Assembly (NCBI RefSeq): GCF_030345095.1
Contig: NZ_CP128360.1
Location: forward strand, 4,960,001-5,024,000
Length of the DNA stretch: 64,000 nucleotides
DNA from: Solwaraspora sp. WMMA2056
GTDB taxonomy: Bacteria > Actinomycetota > Actinomycetes > Mycobacteriales > Micromonosporaceae
Direction: 5' to 3'
Below are positions 18,449-61,225 of this stretch, one piece after another. A program made the position numbers and the translations under genes. Below the pieces are notes generated by a model, which saw nothing but the letters and a program-made list of their open reading frames with translations, was not told the origin of the DNA and searched no databases. Within the stretch, counting starts at the first letter, position 1. Each line of letters starts with the position of its first letter.

Positions 18449-18468
18449 CGATGTTTGCGCAAACATCG
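18449..18468. promoter_or_regulatory. LacI-type operator 1 of the GH30 gene
   Basis: CGATGTTTGCGCAAACATCG is a perfect 20-bp palindrome with a central CG, the usual form of a LacI-family operator. It lies about 60 bases upstream of the GH30 start codon. Confidence 0.8.
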
Positions 18469-52762: not shown

Positions 52763-55700
52763 ATGGCCCGGTTGTTGCAGCGCGTAGGCAGGTTCGCGCA
52801 CCGGCAGAGATTCATCGTGATCGGAGGCTGGGTGCTGCTGCTCCTGGCCCTCGTGGGAGGCCTCGCGGCGCGCGGGAGCGCCCTGACCGACGAGTTCACC
52901 ATCCCCAGTTCGGAATCCCAGGCGGCCCTGAACGTGCTGCAGGAGGAGTTCCCCAGTGCAGGCGGGACCTCGCTGCAGATCCTGCTGGAGGCACCCGACG
53001 GCGGGACAGTGAGCGACCCGGCCTACACCGCCGCCGTCCAGCGGTCGCTGACGGCGGTGTCCAAAATCGACCACGTGCGGGCCGTCGCGCCACCGCAGGC
53101 CCCGGGCACGGTCAGCGCCGACGGTCGATCCGGGCTGGCCATCGTGCAGTTCGACGTACTCAAGGGCGAACTGCCCGACTCGACAGGCGACGACGTCCGG
53201 GCTGCGATGGCCCCGGCCGAGCAGGCCGGGCTGACCGTGCTCCTCGGCGGCAACGCCCTCTCCGGCGGGCCGAGTTCCGCCTCGCACGCGGCGGAGGTGA
53301 TCGGCCTCCTGCTGGCGGTCGTCGTCCTCGCGGTCACCCTCGGGTCGGTGGTCGCCGCCGGGCTGCCCCTGCTCACCGCGCTCGTCGGCGTCGCCGCCGG
53401 GCTGGTCGGTATCTGGGTGGCCTCGACCCTGACCACGATCTCCACGACCGCCCCGACGCTCGCGCTCATGCTCGGGCTCGCGGTCGGTATCGACTACGCC
53501 CTGCTGCTGGTCGTCCGCCACCGCGCCGAACTGGCCGCAGGGGCGGACGTCGCGCAGGCCGTCGCCCGGGCCACCGCCACTGCGGGGTCGTCGGTGGTGT
53601 TCGCCGGGTCGACCGTGATCATCGCCCTCCTTGGCCTGGCCGTGGCGCAGGTGCCGTTCCTCACCGTGATGGGGGTGTCCTCGGCGGCGACCGTGCTCCT
53701 CGCGGTGCTGGTGGCGATCACGTTGCTGCCGGCCCTACTGTCGGTGGCCGGGCGGCGGCTGGCGCCGCGCCCGGGCGGGCGGGACAGCCGGCGGGCCACG
53801 GCCGTCGCCGAGGGCCGCGCGGTCCCCGGCGCCGAGCGCTGGGTGCGGGGCGTGCTGCGCCGGCCCGTCGTCATCCTCGCCGCCGGGGTCGGCGCGCTAC
53901 TCGTCCTGGCGGTGCCGGTGACGGGCATGCGACTGGCGCTGCCCGACAACGGGAGCCTGCCGAACAGCGACCAGGCGCGCCAGGTCTACGACACGGTCTC
54001 CGACGAGTTCGGACCCGGGCTCAACGGTCCGGTCCTCGTGCTCGCCGACCTCTCCAGGTCCAGCCAGCCGGACACGGCCGCCACGGCCGTCGCCGAAGGT
54101 CTCAGCGACATTCCCGGGGTAGCGTCGGTAGCGCCGCCGCGGATTTCCGCCGACGCCCGGTACGCGCTGATCCAGGTGATCCCCGCGACCGGACCCGCCG
54201 ACCCGGCGACCGCCGACGTGGTGCAGACGATCCGGCACGAGGCCGCGGACATCACCGCCACGACCGGCGCAACCATCCAGGTCAGCGGGACGACCGCGCT
54301 CGGCGTCGACGTCTCCGCCCGGCTGCTTACCGCGATCCTGCCGTTCGCCCTGGTCGTCGTCGGCCTGTCGATGGTGCTGTTGACGATGGTCTTCCGCTCC
54401 CTGCTGGTGCCCCTCATCGCCGCGGTCGGCTACCTACTCACCCTCGGCGCGACCCTCGGCGTCACCGTGGTGCTGTTCCAGTGGGGCTGGCTCGGCGGCA
54501 TCCTCAGCGACGGCGCCACCGGCTCCCTGGTGAGCTTCATGCCGATCATCGTGATGGCTGTGCTGTTCGGTCTGGCAATGGACTACCAGGTCTTCCTCGT
54601 CTCCCGGATCCACGAGGCGGTCATCCACGGCCGCGAGCCGAGGGAGGCGGTACGCGAGGGAGCACGGCACGCCGGCAGGGTCGTCGCGGCCGCCGCACTG
54701 ATCATGATCGGGGTCTTCGCCAGCTTCGTGGTCAGCGGGACGGCAACGGTCCGCCCGATCGCCTTCGCGCTGGCCCTCGGCGTGCTCCTGGACGCCTTCC
54801 TCGTCCGGATGACGCTGGTCCCCGCCGCACTCGGGCTGCTCGGCACACACGCCTGGACACTGCCGCACCGCCTCGACCGTCTGCTGCCCGCCATGGACGT
54901 GGAAGGTGTCGCACTGGACCGCCCGGCCGACGGGGACGCCGCCGGCTCCGTCGAGGGACACACCCGCACCGAGGACGACATCACCCGCGCACCATCGCCG
55001 CCGTCGGGATCCGATCCCGATCCCGACGGCACTCCATCACCTGGCAAAGGCAGTGACAGGGGTGCCCCAACCAGCAGGAAGCCGTCCTCCTCAAGAGGAG
55101 GCACCGCCGGTAGCACGGGCCGCACGAAAGCGCTTATCACCGATCTCTCAATCAATTCGATCAGGGAGGTTCGCATGCCCACCCGCCCTCTGGCAGCCAT
55201 GTCGGTAACCGTGATCGCAGCGCTCGTCGGGTGCCTCGCGGTGCCGTCAGGCGCCCAAGCCACCGCGTCGACAACGACGTCCGGCATCGACGCCTACCTA
55301 TACGGTTACGCTCCGGTCGTTGCCGCCCGCACCCGGGCCAACCAACTGTGCGCCATCGGGAACGTCAACACGCTGGCGAGCTCGCCTGAGCTCACCACTC
55401 CCGCCAGCCGTGACGTGGTGGCACCCAACGTCGACACCCTCTACTCCATCGCATGGCTCGACCTGCGTCGTGGGCCGGTCGTGCTGACGGTACCGGCGAT
55501 CGACGACCGGTACTACAACTTCCAGTTCCTCGACATGTACACCAACGTGTTCACCAACATCGGCACCAGCACCGTGGACCCTGCGGGCGGCAGGTACGCA
55601 ATCGTTCCGCCCGGATGGTCCGGTGAGCTTCCGACCGGCGTCACGTCGGTGTCCGCGCCGACCTGGGACGTATGGCTGCTGGGTCGCACACTCGTGAAGA

Positions 55701-56548
55701 ACCCCGACGACGTGTCCGCCGCCTGGGCTGTCATGGCCGGGTACCAGCTCGCCGTCCTCGAAACGCCCGCCACCGGCACGCCGCCGCCGCTGCCTACGCC
55801 CGACTGTGCGAACCTGCCACGGCCACAGACCCCCTACGACGCCGGCGCCGCCTTCTTCGACGAACTGGCCGCCGTGCTCGCGGCCGACCCGCCACCGGCC
55901 GCCGACGCGCCGGCACTCGCCGGTCTCGCCGCGCTCAGCGTCGAGCCGGGCGGGAACCCGAGCCAAGGGGATCCGCAGGCCGTCGCCACCCTGGAGGCGG
56001 CGGTGACCGACGGGCAGGCGTACCTCGCCGCCGGCCACGCGGAAGCCGCGTTCCCCACCGCCGGGCGGACGTGGCGGTCGAGCCTCAGCGCCGGCACCTA
56101 CGGCACCGACTACCTGCTCCGAGCCGGCATCGCCGCCGGCGGCCTGGGCGCCAACGTGCCCGCCGAGTCGACGTACTATTTCTCCCAGTCCGATCTGCTC
56201 GGCCAGCCACTCAGCGGTGAACACTCCTACCGACTGCACTTCCGGCCGGGCGCTCTCCCACCGACGAGCGCGGACGGATTCTGGTCGGTGACAATGTACG
56301 ACGAGAACTACTTCCTCGTTCCCAACGAGCTCAACCGGTACGCCCTCAGCGATCGTTCCGCTCTCACGGTGAACCAGGACGGATCACTCGACCTGTTCCT
56401 GTCCACCACTCCACCACCCGGCGGGACGGCGAACTGGCTGCCCGCCCCGACCGGCACCTTCCACGTCTACATGCGGGTCTACCTACCCACCGACGACGTG
56501 CTGACCGGCGAGTGGCAGCCGCCGCGCATCACCCGGTGGTTCTGCTGA
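52763..56548 (+). CDS. MMPL-family transporter read in frame into a DUF1254/DUF1214 protein
   Basis: A 1261-codon open frame. Residues 1-710 are an MMPL (RND-like) transporter: an N-terminal helix, an extracellular loop, a first membrane bundle with the motif GLAVGIDYALLLVVRHR, and a second with LFGLAMDYQVFLVSRIHE. About 90 low-complexity hydrophilic residues follow. A second signal-like segment (MSVTVIAALVGCLAVPSGAQA) leads into DUF1254 (YLYGYAPVVAARTRANQL) and DUF1214 (GFWSVTMYDENYFLVPN). No stop separates the halves, yet an RBS and an ATG at 55175 exist. So the protein could be a true fusion, or two proteins sharing a frame after loss of the stop. The two-component system upstream may regulate it. 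Confidence 0.8.
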   Translation: MARLLQRVGRFAHRQRFIVIGGWVLLLLALVGGLAARGSALTDEFTIPSSESQAALNVLQEEFPSAGGTSLQILLEAPDGGTVSDPAYTAAVQRSLTAVSKIDHVRAVAPPQAPGTVSADGRSGLAIVQFDVLKGELPDSTGDDVRAAMAPAEQAGLTVLLGGNALSGGPSSASHAAEVIGLLLAVVVLAVTLGSVVAAGLPLLTALVGVAAGLVGIWVASTLTTISTTAPTLALMLGLAVGIDYALLLVVRHRAELAAGADVAQAVARATATAGSSVVFAGSTVIIALLGLAVAQVPFLTVMGVSSAATVLLAVLVAITLLPALLSVAGRRLAPRPGGRDSRRATAVAEGRAVPGAERWVRGVLRRPVVILAAGVGALLVLAVPVTGMRLALPDNGSLPNSDQARQVYDTVSDEFGPGLNGPVLVLADLSRSSQPDTAATAVAEGLSDIPGVASVAPPRISADARYALIQVIPATGPADPATADVVQTIRHEAADITATTGATIQVSGTTALGVDVSARLLTAILPFALVVVGLSMVLLTMVFRSLLVPLIAAVGYLLTLGATLGVTVVLFQWGWLGGILSDGATGSLVSFMPIIVMAVLFGLAMDYQVFLVSRIHEAVIHGREPREAVREGARHAGRVVAAAALIMIGVFASFVVSGTATVRPIAFALALGVLLDAFLVRMTLVPAALGLLGTHAWTLPHRLDRLLPAMDVEGVALDRPADGDAAGSVEGHTRTEDDITRAPSPPSGSDPDPDGTPSPGKGSDRGAPTSRKPSSSRGGTAGSTGRTKALITDLSINSIREVRMPTRPLAAMSVTVIAALVGCLAVPSGAQATASTTTSGIDAYLYGYAPVVAARTRANQLCAIGNVNTLASSPELTTPASRDVVAPNVDTLYSIAWLDLRRGPVVLTVPAIDDRYYNFQFLDMYTNVFTNIGTSTVDPAGGRYAIVPPGWSGELPTGVTSVSAPTWDVWLLGRTLVKNPDDVSAAWAVMAGYQLAVLETPATGTPPPLPTPDCANLPRPQTPYDAGAAFFDELAAVLAADPPPAADAPALAGLAALSVEPGGNPSQGDPQAVATLEAAVTDGQAYLAAGHAEAAFPTAGRTWRSSLSAGTYGTDYLLRAGIAAGGLGANVPAESTYYFSQSDLLGQPLSGEHSYRLHFRPGALPPTSADGFWSVTMYDENYFLVPNELNRYALSDRSALTVNQDGSLDLFLSTTPPPGGTANWLPAPTGTFHVYMRVYLPTDDVLTGEWQPPRITRWFC
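55175..56548 (+). CDS. Possible independently translated DUF1254/DUF1214 protein
   Basis: Same frame as the 3' part of the preceding entry. GGGAGG lies five bases before an ATG at 55175. The N-terminus MPTRPLAAMSVTVIAALVG is a signal peptide with cleavage likely after AQA. The 457-residue protein is complete by family standards: DUF1254 (about 35-160), DUF1214 (about 330-430) and a C-terminal YMRVYLPTDDVLTGEWQPPRI. The enzymatic role of DUF1254 proteins is not settled. Whether this product is made alone or only as a fusion cannot be told from sequence. Confidence 0.6.
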   Translation: MPTRPLAAMSVTVIAALVGCLAVPSGAQATASTTTSGIDAYLYGYAPVVAARTRANQLCAIGNVNTLASSPELTTPASRDVVAPNVDTLYSIAWLDLRRGPVVLTVPAIDDRYYNFQFLDMYTNVFTNIGTSTVDPAGGRYAIVPPGWSGELPTGVTSVSAPTWDVWLLGRTLVKNPDDVSAAWAVMAGYQLAVLETPATGTPPPLPTPDCANLPRPQTPYDAGAAFFDELAAVLAADPPPAADAPALAGLAALSVEPGGNPSQGDPQAVATLEAAVTDGQAYLAAGHAEAAFPTAGRTWRSSLSAGTYGTDYLLRAGIAAGGLGANVPAESTYYFSQSDLLGQPLSGEHSYRLHFRPGALPPTSADGFWSVTMYDENYFLVPNELNRYALSDRSALTVNQDGSLDLFLSTTPPPGGTANWLPAPTGTFHVYMRVYLPTDDVLTGEWQPPRITRWFC

Positions 56549-57084: not shown

Positions 57085-57948
57085 TCAGGCGGCCTGGTCG
57101 AGGCTGGCCAGGTGTTCGGCCGACAGCGTGAGGTCGGCCGCCGCGACGGAGTCACGGATCGTCTCCGGGCGCGACGACCCGGGGATCGGGATCACCACCG
57201 GCGACTTCGCCAGCATCCAGGCCAGGCAGACCTGCTGCGGGCTGACCCCGTACTCCTTCGCGACCTGCGCGAACGCCGCGAACCGCGACCCGAGGTCGGC
57301 GGCGCTGGAGATACCGCCAAGCGGACTCCACGGCAGGAACGCGATGCCGAGTTCGGCGCACAGCTCCAGCTCCGGTTCGCTGGAGCGGAAGGCCGGGGAA
57401 AACTGATTCTGTACGCTGACCAGCCGGCCACCGAGGATGTCGTTGGCGAGCCGGATCTGCTCCGGGTCGGCGTTGGAGATGCCGGCGAGGCGGATCTTGC
57501 CGGCGTCGAGCAGGTCGCGGATCGCGCCGACCGAGTCCGCGTACGGCACGTTGGGGTCGGGCCGGTGGAACTGGTAGAGGCCGATCGCCTCGACGCCGAG
57601 CCGCTTCAGCGACGCGTCGCAGGCGCTCTTCACGTACTCCGGCGAGCCGTTCTGCGTCCAGGAGCCGTCGCCGGGTCGCAGGTGACCGCCCTTCGTGGCG
57701 ATCAGCACGTCGGAGGTGTCGCCACCGTAGGTCGCCACGGCGCGGGCGATCAGCGACTCGTTGTGGCCGACGTCGTTGGCGTACAGATGGTAGGCGTCGG
57801 CGGTGTCGATCAGGGTGACACCGGCGTCCAGCGCGGCGTGGATCGTGGCGATCGACCGCTGCTCGTCGGGACGTCCCTCGATCGACATCGGCATACCGCC
57901 GAGCCCGATCGCGCCGACGCCGACCTCACCGATGTAGCGGGTGTGCAT
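57085..57948 (-). CDS. Aldo/keto reductase
   Basis: A 287-residue TIM-barrel NADPH-dependent reductase of aldehydes or ketones. The catalytic tetrad is present: Asp48 and Tyr53 in LIDTADAY, Lys86 in LIATKGG, and His128 in YQFHRPD. The cofactor-binding block is PIPGSSRPETIRDSV. The start at 57948 has GGAGGAG upstream. The 78 residues beyond, in the open frame to 58167, are not part of the protein. The substrate is unknown. It is a separate unit near the triple-fusion gene. Confidence 0.92.
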   Translation of the reverse strand: MHTRYIGEVGVGAIGLGGMPMSIEGRPDEQRSIATIHAALDAGVTLIDTADAYHLYANDVGHNESLIARAVATYGGDTSDVLIATKGGHLRPGDGSWTQNGSPEYVKSACDASLKRLGVEAIGLYQFHRPDPNVPYADSVGAIRDLLDAGKIRLAGISNADPEQIRLANDILGGRLVSVQNQFSPAFRSSEPELELCAELGIAFLPWSPLGGISSAADLGSRFAAFAQVAKEYGVSPQQVCLAWMLAKSPVVIPIPGSSRPETIRDSVAAADLTLSAEHLASLDQAA

Positions 57949-58051: not shown

Positions 58052-59821
58052 TTACCGCCCGACCGCGATGGTACGGATGACGCCGACCATGTCGAGCGCC
58101 CCGTCGCCGCGCCGCACGGCGTCGGCGTAGAGAGCACGGCACAGGTCGCTGAGCGGGACGGCGGCACCTGCGGAGACAGCCGCGTCGACGATGAGCGCGG
58201 AGTTCATCTGTACGTCGGAGATCGCTGCCTGCGCGGTGAGGTCGCCCGCGACCAGCTTCGCGGTCTTGACCCGGGAGATCGGGGAGGACATCTGCCCGGC
58301 GTCGAGGATCTCACGCAGCAGGCGTGGATCGAGACCGTGCCTGTCCGCGAAGTGGAACGCCTCGGCGAGGCCGGTCACGAGGGCGATCAGGAACACGTTG
58401 ACGGCAAGCTTCATCGTGATACCGGATGGCACGGGTCCGCAGATGGTGATCTGCGCGCACATCGGATCGAGCAGCGGGGCGACGCGTCGGACGGTGTCGG
58501 GACGGCCCGCCACCATCGCGACGAGGTTGCCGTCCTGCGCCGGCACCCGGGAGCCGGAGACCGGCGCTTCGACGTAGTGTCCGCCGGCGCTCTCGACCTC
58601 GTCGGCCAGCGCCTTCGAGTACTCCGGGGAGAGGGTTCCCATGTTGACGATCGTGCGTCCGGCGACGAGACGGGCGAGCCCTCCAGGGACGTCGCGGAGG
58701 ACCTGGTCGACCGCGTCGGCGTCGCGCAGCATGACGAACACCGTGTCACTGCGGGCGAACACCTCCGTGACGTCGACGGCGGTGCGGGTGCCGGCCGAGT
58801 CGAGTTCCTCGTCGGCCTTCGGGGTGCGGCTCCACACGGTCAGCCGGACGCCGCTGTGCGCGAGCCGCCGGGCCATCGGCAGGCCCATGATGCCCAGCCC
58901 GATGAAGCCGACTCCGCCAGGTGGGGCACCGGTGCCGCCGCCGGGCAGCGGTTTGACGAACCAGTGGTGTGCGTACGGCTCGTCGTTGAACGGGGCGACC
59001 TCGTCGTACCCGGCTGCCCGGTACAGGCCGATCGCCTCGGTGAGGGACCTGTTGGTCTCCAGCCGGACGGCGCTCGCCCCGAGGGACGTGGCCGCCTGCT
59101 CGGCCGCGTCGAGCAGGCGCCGGCCGACTCCCAGCCCGCGCAGCTCGGGCGACACCCAGAGTCGTCGGATCGCTGCCGCCGTCTCGTCGACCTTCGTGAC
59201 GGCGACGCATCCGACGGGGCGGTCCTGCAACGTCGCCAGCAGGAACTGTCCGGACGGGGGACGCAGTGTGTCGTCGACGGCGGGAATGCTGCGCTCCGGC
59301 CGGAACCCGCCGTCGAAACGTTCGTCGAGCGTACGGTGGTACGCGTCGACCGCCCACCGCGCCGCGTCGCTGGCAGGGTCGACCGCAGCGATCGTGACCG
59401 CTGACGCGGTGAACATGCGTCGCACGGTCGTCGCCGCCGCGACGAGCTCATCTCGCTGACGTTCGGTCAGTGGAGCCAGAATCGTCTCGACGAGTTCGTC
59501 GGAGAGCCGGTCCAGCACCGTCAGCTCTGCCAACCCCGCAGGCGTGAGCGTTGCTCGACGGACCCGGCTGTCGTGTTCCGACGCGGACACGGCGACCAGA
59601 CCTTCCTGCTCCAGGGCGCGGAGCTGCCGGCTCGTGTAACCGGAGTCGAGCCCGAGACGGCTGCGCAGCTCGCGGACTTCGATGCCAGCCTCGCCGATCT
59701 CCCACAGCAGACGGTCGAGGCTCAGTGGCCGGTCGCGGGCGAGGTAGCGGTCCTCCAGCACGCCGATTCTCTCGGTGACGAGGCGGTTGAACGCACGGAT
59801 GGTCTGGGTCTGAGACGTCAT
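58052..59821 (-). CDS. MarR / GNAT / 3-hydroxyisobutyrate dehydrogenase-like triple fusion
   Basis: A 589-residue protein with three domains. Residues 1-138 are a MarR winged helix (LRSRLGLDSGYTSRQLRALEQEGLV, EHDSRVRRATLTPAG). Residues about 142-295 are a GNAT acetyltransferase with the acetyl-CoA motif SPELRGLGVGRRLLDAAE; this MarR-GNAT pair is known on its own. Residues about 303-589 are an NAD(P)-binding beta-hydroxyacid dehydrogenase: GFIGLGIMGLPMARRL, substrate motif EAPVSGSRVPAQ and the catalytic Lys in ITMKLAVN. All motifs look intact. A perfect palindrome lies eight bases upstream of the ATG and overlaps a TATAGT -10, so the MarR part probably represses its own gene. Substrates are unknown. 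Confidence 0.88.
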   Translation of the reverse strand: MTSQTQTIRAFNRLVTERIGVLEDRYLARDRPLSLDRLLWEIGEAGIEVRELRSRLGLDSGYTSRQLRALEQEGLVAVSASEHDSRVRRATLTPAGLAELTVLDRLSDELVETILAPLTERQRDELVAAATTVRRMFTASAVTIAAVDPASDAARWAVDAYHRTLDERFDGGFRPERSIPAVDDTLRPPSGQFLLATLQDRPVGCVAVTKVDETAAAIRRLWVSPELRGLGVGRRLLDAAEQAATSLGASAVRLETNRSLTEAIGLYRAAGYDEVAPFNDEPYAHHWFVKPLPGGGTGAPPGGVGFIGLGIMGLPMARRLAHSGVRLTVWSRTPKADEELDSAGTRTAVDVTEVFARSDTVFVMLRDADAVDQVLRDVPGGLARLVAGRTIVNMGTLSPEYSKALADEVESAGGHYVEAPVSGSRVPAQDGNLVAMVAGRPDTVRRVAPLLDPMCAQITICGPVPSGITMKLAVNVFLIALVTGLAEAFHFADRHGLDPRLLREILDAGQMSSPISRVKTAKLVAGDLTAQAAISDVQMNSALIVDAAVSAGAAVPLSDLCRALYADAVRRGDGALDMVGVIRTIAVGR

Positions 59822-59829
59822 GCCCACAA

Positions 59830-59849
59830 TCTCTGACTATAGTCAGAGA
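59830..59849. promoter_or_regulatory. Perfect 20-bp palindromic operator of the MarR fusion gene
   Basis: TCTCTGACTATAGTCAGAGA is identical on both strands. On the minus strand the central TATAGT is a good -10 hexamer 14 bases before the ATG at 59821, so a bound dimer would block the promoter. Confidence 0.85.
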
Positions 59850-59899: not shown

Positions 59900-61225
59900 T
59901 TACCGGCCCAGGTTGAGTCGGGGGACGGTGAAGGTGCCGTTGCCGACGGAGTGCACCAGCGGCCACAACTCGCGCGGCCAGCCGGCCTGCCGGGCCGACC
60001 GGACGCCCAGGCCGACCGCCACCTCCTGGGGGACCTGCGCGCCCAGCAGGATCGTCGCGCCCGGTGCGCTGGCCGCCTGCTCGGCGATCCACTGGGCCGC
60101 CGTCGCCACGATCTGCGGATAGTCCTGCCAGTGGTGGTGTGTCTCCCCCGGCCGGGGCAGGTAGCGCCGTTCGCGCAGCGTCGTCGACACGGTCTCCGAC
60201 AGGCCCAGCCCGGCGGCGTCGTGCAGCTCGACGACGAGCGGTTCGCGGTCGCTGGCGGCGGCCGCGTCGTCGTGGGCGGCCCGCTGGGTCAGATCGGCCG
60301 GCAGTCTCGGCAGTGGGCCGAACTCGTGATGGTTGGTCCGCAGCACCAGCAGCAGGATCTCCGGCGTCGCCCCGTCGTCGGTGGCGACGACCGAGGAGGC
60401 GACCCCGGCTGTGGCGACGCCGTCTGTGGCGACCCCGTCTGTGGTGACCCGCAGCCTCGCCGGGTGGCGCTGCACCCGCAGCTCCCCGGAGAGCCCGCCG
60501 TCGGGTCGGTCGGCCGGGCCCTGGAAGGTGTGCCCGGGCTCGACCGGGCCGACCCGCAGCGGCCCCTGCCGGCCGAAGCTGTCACGCTGGCGGACCTGCA
60601 GCGCCCGGCCCCGTTCAGCCACGGTCACCTTGTGTCCGAAGGCCGCCGCCACCGGCCACGGCGCCCAGACGAACAACGACCGGTCCAGGGCGGCGTCCCG
60701 GCCGTCCGGGTCGTAGCTTGCCACCTGGAAGTGGCGGACCAGGTTGTCGACGTCGCGGCCCCAGCGGACCGCCTCCGCCCCCTGCGGCCAGACCGCCGCC
60801 CGGTCGAAGGTGCGCAGCGGCGGCACCGGCCGGAACACGGCGAACCGGCCCCGGACGTCGTTGAGGAAGCCGTCCTTCTGCTCCGGAGTCCAGCCGGCCG
60901 CCACCTCGTTGACGACGTAGGCGACGCCGAGGCGGTCGCGGAGCCGGTTACGCCACCACCAGGCTCCGACGCCGACGGCAAGGGTGACGACCCCTGCCAG
61001 GGTGAACGCCACCAGCCAGCCGCCCCGGCCGCCGGTCCAGCCCTCGGCGGCCAGGTCCGGTGCGATGCCACCGGCCGCGCTGAACGCGGCCGTCGCGACG
61101 GTGAAGAAGACCCCGACGACGCCGGGGCCCGCCGGACCGGCCAGCCACCGCCCGACCCGGGCGACGTCGACGGTACGGCGGACAGCCCGCACCTGCTGCG
61201 GCTGCTTCTGATCCACCTCGGACAC
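59900..61225 (-). CDS. Two-TM protein of unknown function with a possible SAVED-like C-terminus
   Basis: A 441-residue protein I do not recognise with confidence. Two membrane segments lie near residues 33-55 (GVVGVFFTVATAAFSAAGG) and 69-88 (WLVAFTLAGVVTLAVGVGAWW), then a large cytosolic region. The middle carries a five-residue tandem repeat (TDGVATDGVATAGVA, DNA 60409-60453). The C-terminal part ATILLGAQVPQEVAVGLGV followed by PLVHSVGNGTF has the rhythm of a SAVED-type ligand-sensing domain, but the match is by eye. It starts at a GTG with GAGGTG upstream. There is no cyclase or nuclease next to it. It could instead be a family-specific envelope protein. Confidence 0.5.
   Translation of the reverse strand: MSEVDQKQPQQVRAVRRTVDVARVGRWLAGPAGPGVVGVFFTVATAAFSAAGGIAPDLAAEGWTGGRGGWLVAFTLAGVVTLAVGVGAWWWRNRLRDRLGVAYVVNEVAAGWTPEQKDGFLNDVRGRFAVFRPVPPLRTFDRAAVWPQGAEAVRWGRDVDNLVRHFQVASYDPDGRDAALDRSLFVWAPWPVAAAFGHKVTVAERGRALQVRQRDSFGRQGPLRVGPVEPGHTFQGPADRPDGGLSGELRVQRHPARLRVTTDGVATDGVATAGVASSVVATDDGATPEILLLVLRTNHHEFGPLPRLPADLTQRAAHDDAAAASDREPLVVELHDAAGLGLSETVSTTLRERRYLPRPGETHHHWQDYPQIVATAAQWIAEQAASAPGATILLGAQVPQEVAVGLGVRSARQAGWPRELWPLVHSVGNGTFTVPRLNLGR

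Follow-up and report, generated by a model that had tools for sequence, protein, structure and literature searches.

To our knowledge, few repressors are joined to the enzyme under their control, and a handful of them are well studied. PutA of E. coli is a trigger enzyme in which DNA binding and two enzyme activities share one polypeptide that represses its own gene, and it exemplifies single-target trigger enzymes as an established type (PMC8249747). PutA also controls putP, and membrane binding is its switch (PMC8249747). It is the closest functional analogy for the locus described here, which would likewise combine one polypeptide, two (here predicted) enzymes, self-repression and a single target; the domains of the two proteins are unrelated, and neither a putP-like second target nor a membrane switch was found for ours.

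The fusion is a rare third-domain extension of the known MarR-GNAT proteins ("bifunctional helix-turn-helix transcriptional regulator/GNAT family N-acetyltransferase"). A literature search, with most subscription journals outside its coverage, found among the papers listed no account of a MarR-GNAT or a MarR-GNAT-dehydrogenase protein. Residues 1-292 align end to end with stand-alone members at 49-61%, so that the order of a MarR winged helix and then a single GNAT domain is shared over an alignable length of about 290 aa, and the same operator core adjoins the start, a criterion drawn from the present analysis and not from published work. Whereas 91 of 100 MarR-GNAT loci end at 280-349 aa, the fusion alone adds a C-terminal dehydrogenase. 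That third part shares with the beta-hydroxyacid dehydrogenases (3pef/3pdu, 1yb4/GlxR, HIBADH, GLYR1) the full-length fold, the cofactor motif, SGS and a catalytic-type Lys, and differs from them by the attached regulator and by scores below the equivalog cut-offs.

Architecture of the fusion gene

The gene occupies the minus strand at 58052..59827 of the window, by which we mean the whole 64,000-nucleotide stretch analysed. It runs from GTG 59827 to the TAA stop at 58052-58054 and encodes 591 aa with no internal stop, or 589 aa if read from ATG 59821, from which residue and Pfam positions are counted throughout. GTG 59827 is the likely true start, because two members of the genus have ATG at the same place, and the orthologue from Myceligenerans shares the GTG but lacks any ATG, GTG or TTG at the position of 59821. 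A preliminary description of this DNA had read a MarR regulator, an acetyltransferase and a beta-hydroxyacid dehydrogenase in one frame with intact motifs, and the open reading frame, Pfam and motif alignment bear this out.

The MarR part, residues 1-141 (59399..59821, minus strand), has long predicted helices flanking the winged helix, with a Pfam core at 38-86 (59564-59710; E 8e-8). It is followed by the GNAT domain, residues 142-292 (58946..59398, minus strand; Acetyltransf_1 176-272, E 5e-18), delimited by Pfam, conservation over 71 aligned rows and the structural model; it carries the acetyl-CoA motif RGLGVGRR and the family motif FNDEPYAHHWF, in which N279, D280, Y283, A284, H285, H286, W287, F288 and also K290 are kept in at least 97% of the 71 rows. 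A Gly/Pro-rich linker, residues 293-302 (58916..58945, minus strand), differs in length between homologues and leads into the dehydrogenase part, residues 303-587 (58061..58915, minus strand), with an N-terminal Rossmann domain (NAD_binding_2 304-462, E 3.5e-38) and a C-terminal NAD_binding_11 domain (466-584, E 3.6e-14), as expected of a beta-hydroxyacid dehydrogenase. All four Pfam matches exceed the curated cut-offs. An AlphaFold2 model built from 102 aligned sequences has a mean pLDDT of 92.1, falling below 50 only at 295-300, between GNAT and dehydrogenase; with a pTM of 0.55 the parts are predicted to be well folded and their mutual placement is not fixed, and therefore no allosteric path from dehydrogenase to MarR part is visible in the model.

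The dehydrogenase part carries VGFIGLGIMG, SRT, PVSGS at 420-424 and K471 (58409-58411); we take PVSGS to be the substrate motif and K471, together with a downstream Asn, the catalytic-type lysine. K471 and S-G-S are invariant in all 40 aligned dehydrogenases of the clade, fused and non-fused, and in the Mycolicibacterium copy (L035) a serine replaces the asparagine four residues after K471 (K-x3-N). Among the best 50 of 1999 Foldseek matches, at about 30% identity (24-33%), are gamma-hydroxybutyrate dehydrogenases (3pef/3pdu), GlxR, tartronate semialdehyde reductase (1yb4), GLYR1 and L-serine 3-dehydrogenase; these best 50 are dehydrogenases exclusively and are therefore uninformative on MarR-GNAT structures, and a sequence search returning five chains found no solved structure spanning both MarR and GNAT. 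The dehydrogenase lies far under every NCBIfam equivalog cut-off listed, including tartronate semialdehyde reductase (161 against 340.75 bits) and 3-hydroxyisobutyrate dehydrogenase proper (TIGR01692; 137.8 against 291.6 bits), so "HIBADH-type" names the fold only and assigns no substrate. In the reading favoured below, both the GNAT and the dehydrogenase part would be catalytically active.

Selection on the coding sequence was assessed by dN/dS (NG86, 21 pairs from 7 sequences), with ratios of 0.10-0.25 for MarR, 0.27-0.52 for GNAT, 0.15-0.41 for the dehydrogenase N-part and 0.05-0.41 for its C-part. The lowest values fall in MarR and the dehydrogenase C-part and the highest in GNAT, and the codon comparisons show purifying selection acting on every part of the fusion.

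Distribution and origin of the fusion

Of seven genomes from the genus, counting the present one, six have the full-length fusion; the other five copies are 83-91% identical and one genome (G060) lacks it. A seeded scan of 84,980 species, each represented by one genome, in which the best 80 of 196 relatives were kept, added three more among those 80, in Myceligenerans indicum (L033, 76%), Phycicoccus endophyticus (L034, 65%) and Mycolicibacterium palauense (L035, 65%), and Pfam detects all domains in each. The architecture thus recurs in nine fused homologues counting the window protein, all actinobacterial. The preliminary description had singled out residues 295-303 as the place where a hidden stop might separate the parts, and had raised the prospect of homologues always encoded as separate genes. 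Both outcomes are excluded: no stop is found there in the window protein, and translation likewise continues across the linker in each of the eight further fused copies. An assembly or frame artefact is ruled out by this read-through in nine genomes, including this one.

The fusion is real but rare. At E 1e-100 its own genome alone matched in samples of 298 genomes from the order and 396 from the phylum, and none of 203 matching plasmid records covers 80% of the protein. A Ktedonobacteria locus (L045), whose match reached residue 365, was excluded as a further case because a stop follows its GNAT part. No other C-terminal partner of MarR-GNAT was seen in 100 loci, where lengths are 280-349 aa save for the nine fusions.

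One metagenome-assembled (MAG) contig, L036, carries a MarR-GNAT gene (62%) and a dehydrogenase gene (65-66%) in different frames, overlapping by GTGA. This two-gene arrangement is probably the pre-fusion state; a sequencing error there is possible, since the MAG is a draft and contig coverage is near 1. In the dehydrogenase tree a branch (93/72; recovered in 94% of 200 bootstrap trees) sets the nine fused copies and L036 apart, with L036 outermost. The tree of MarR-GNAT parts clusters the fused copies weakly (89/40) and puts L036 with stand-alone Microbacterium proteins (99/96), in a group that is sister to the fusions (100/97). The simplest story from these trees is that a two-gene operon became a single gene once, with subsequent transfer among actinobacterial families; the dehydrogenase apparently joined an existing MarR-GNAT later, in a single event and in one clade.

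A predicted operator shared across the MarR-GNAT family

A perfect 20-bp palindrome, TCTCTGACTATAGTCAGAGA, lies at 59830..59849 and stops 2 nt short of GTG 59827. It is the predicted operator of the MarR part and is kept in relatives; variants named beside it are CTGACTAAAGTCAG and TTGACTATAGTCAA. A search allowing up to three mismatches finds it once in the window and never in 100 shuffles. Counting this one, there are four perfect palindromes of 20 bp in the window, so palindromy alone is not unique, and 59830-59849 is the only one known to be conserved in relatives. The other three are CGATGTTTGCGCAAACATCG, GCCCGGTGCATGCACCGGGC and GCTACCGCGATCGCGGTAGC, at window positions 18449, 32416 and 46119.

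Comparison across the family gave a far clearer picture. We matched 104 MarR-GNAT loci which, after setting aside one cut by a contig end and three duplicates, left 100 distinct loci, ten of them the nine fusions and the MAG; these are the best-scoring relatives, with many from Streptomyces, and do not represent 100 independent events. Their retrieval relied on protein similarity and thus did not select for the operator. Nevertheless the core CTGACTANNGTCAG precedes the start with at most one mismatch in all 100 and exactly in 96. Its distance to the nearest in-frame start codon is 3 nt in 59 loci, 4 in 29 and 5 in 9 (97 of the 100), with the remaining three at 0, 6 and 11. Ten core positions are invariant throughout, no upstream column between -35 and -5 exceeds 0.37 bit, and the family -35 signal is weak, at most 0.35 bit over the same 100 loci. 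Each of the nine fusions, like L036, has the palindrome itself or a close variant next to its start. Judged by their record titles, the loci belong to Actinomycetota, Pseudomonadota, Chloroflexota, Acidobacteriota, Gemmatimonadota and Dormibacterota, several of them being MAGs. Autoregulation through the palindrome, as proposed in the preliminary description, is thereby supported far more strongly than a single sequence could allow: the conserved site fits a repressor whose target is its own gene.

The next-ranked 18 relatives, at 32-49% identity, were examined separately. All seven at 41-49% have the core with 0-2 mismatches, variation that is expected if protein and operator co-evolve; it lies 2-32 nt from the residue-1 position, and this looser placement makes the tight spacing a feature of the nearer family. 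The core CTGACTANNGTCAG, with its CTGAC, is absent from the eleven at 32-34% (L157-L167). By eye, these eleven have TTGAC...GTCAA-like repeats close to the start instead, which suggests an operator that changed together with the protein.

The fusion's own genome (G000) has the exact core at a single place, as do six of seven further genomes; the seventh (G079) has it at two. With other exact cores nearly absent from the searched genomes, the MarR part seems to act locally, on its own gene and on almost no other target. The operator as the mark of a wider regulon was considered and is unsupported, with eight extra one-mismatch sites in its own genome against 13 for a control pattern. The second exact core in G079 (L182 1501-1514; G079:C1:4606821-4606834) stands shortly before an open reading frame that by eye resembles an XRE-type regulator.

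As to the overlap of the palindrome with a -10, TATAGT at 59836..59841 (minus strand) is a plausible -10 inside the operator; a simple promoter scan reports no -35/-10 (sigma-70) pair at the site, which weakens it. Family-wide, T-A-N-N-G-T within the core is a possible -10. The mRNA is likely leaderless, since the start codon sits where a transcript from this -10 would begin, and at the window locus the spacing from TATAGT to GTG 59827 would suit such a transcript. Protein bound at the operator would then mask both -10 and start, and the control would be repression.

A proposed self-repressing enzyme and its alternatives

The reading we favour, with moderate confidence, is that of a trigger enzyme that has two catalytic domains, represses its own gene and follows PutA-like logic. 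The MarR part, presumably as a dimer, would bind the palindrome over the -10, nearly touching the start codon, and so keep its own mRNA, which is probably leaderless, from being transcribed. Release from the operator would come from a small molecule, and the fresh protein would act on this inducer or its products with two tethered enzymes: the GNAT part would acetylate inducer or product, and the dehydrogenase part would oxidise or reduce a small hydroxy-acid or semialdehyde. Once the inducer is consumed, repression would resume. Such a scheme supposes that inducer and substrate are the same and that the two enzymes are coupled. More tentatively, MarR-GNAT genes in several phyla may be one-gene circuits whose operator, -10 and leaderless start are inherited together and work wherever they land, the fusion being a two-step version with sensor, acetyltransferase and dehydrogenase for one compound.

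The preliminary description suggested that ligand, acetyl donor and reduced product might be linked; genome comparison speaks against a close metabolic link. Among 143 family genomes outside the fusion clade, with presence taken from a ranked match list, stand-alone MarR-GNAT and stand-alone dehydrogenase occur together in 11 where 9.1 are expected by chance (Fisher p 0.38), and no dehydrogenase match besides that in L036 lies in the flanks (1.5 or up to 5 kb) of non-fused MarR-GNAT loci. Its phrase "one-protein metabolic switch" is plausible as an interpretation and is not a result. The same figures bear on a fusion of convenience, in which unrelated enzymes share one autoregulated promoter without a shared pathway: the stand-alone parts do not co-occur, a read-through of the list for 30 stand-alone dehydrogenases revealed inconsistent neighbours, and the fusion arose apparently once. 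We nonetheless hold this to be distinctly unlikely, as four genera have kept the fusion, purifying selection acts on each of its parts, and the MAG has both genes as one overlapping pair.

The dehydrogenase might instead serve as a cofactor sensor, NADP(H) on its Rossmann domain tuning DNA binding or acetylation in place of catalysis. Catalytically dead enzyme relatives serve as sensors elsewhere, and here the dehydrogenase is joined to a regulator, the best structural matches include N-PAC, a nuclear-protein domain that resembles a dehydrogenase, and the Mycolicibacterium copy is without the N of K-x3-N. We regard this, too, as distinctly unlikely, given the invariance of K471 and SGS in 40 of 40 dehydrogenases, purifying selection on the substrate-binding C-part, and a flexible linker across which the model offers no visible signal route. 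A further reading is that the acetylation target of the GNAT part is a protein, either the attached MarR part or a different one; the switch would then follow the level of acetyl-CoA, and the dehydrogenase would be a passenger co-expressed through the fusion. This would fit the attachment of GNAT to MarR in every relative examined, where its motif set is invariant, and the later addition of the dehydrogenase in one clade. This too seems unlikely, because the invariant N279, D280, Y283, H285, H286 and W287 resemble a putative small-molecule pocket and no candidate acetylation site was identified.

In this family the control site can be read from the DNA almost unambiguously across phyla, and at most one other exact copy per searched genome was seen, which makes ligand screens simple, with one promoter and one protein to follow; the fusion's second enzyme should be trackable by NADPH absorbance and would help to find the ligand of the whole MarR-GNAT family. 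Gene neighbourhoods offer no shortcut: beyond the genus, no conserved neighbours point to a substrate for the fusions, and 34 stand-alone MarR-GNAT loci have none either, the widest family being ABC-transporter-like open reading frames in six groups, so the MarR-GNAT gene is a self-contained unit.

Several neighbours in the window deserve mention. An aldo/keto reductase gene (57085-57948, minus strand) lies on the same strand 103 nt downstream of the fusion gene, leaving no room for a LysR-like gene between them; an ancestral operon of the two was rejected, as a gene that by eye is LysR-type intervenes in L118, L120 and L121. A 441-aa protein at 59900-61225 (minus strand), without a Pfam match, is also encoded close to the fusion at each of the five further loci examined in the genus. 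Further away, a single 1261-aa open reading frame at 52763-56548 (plus strand) joins an MMPL transporter to DUF1254 and then DUF1214, has a 90% homologue in another genus member (L122), and is possibly a second unusual fusion.
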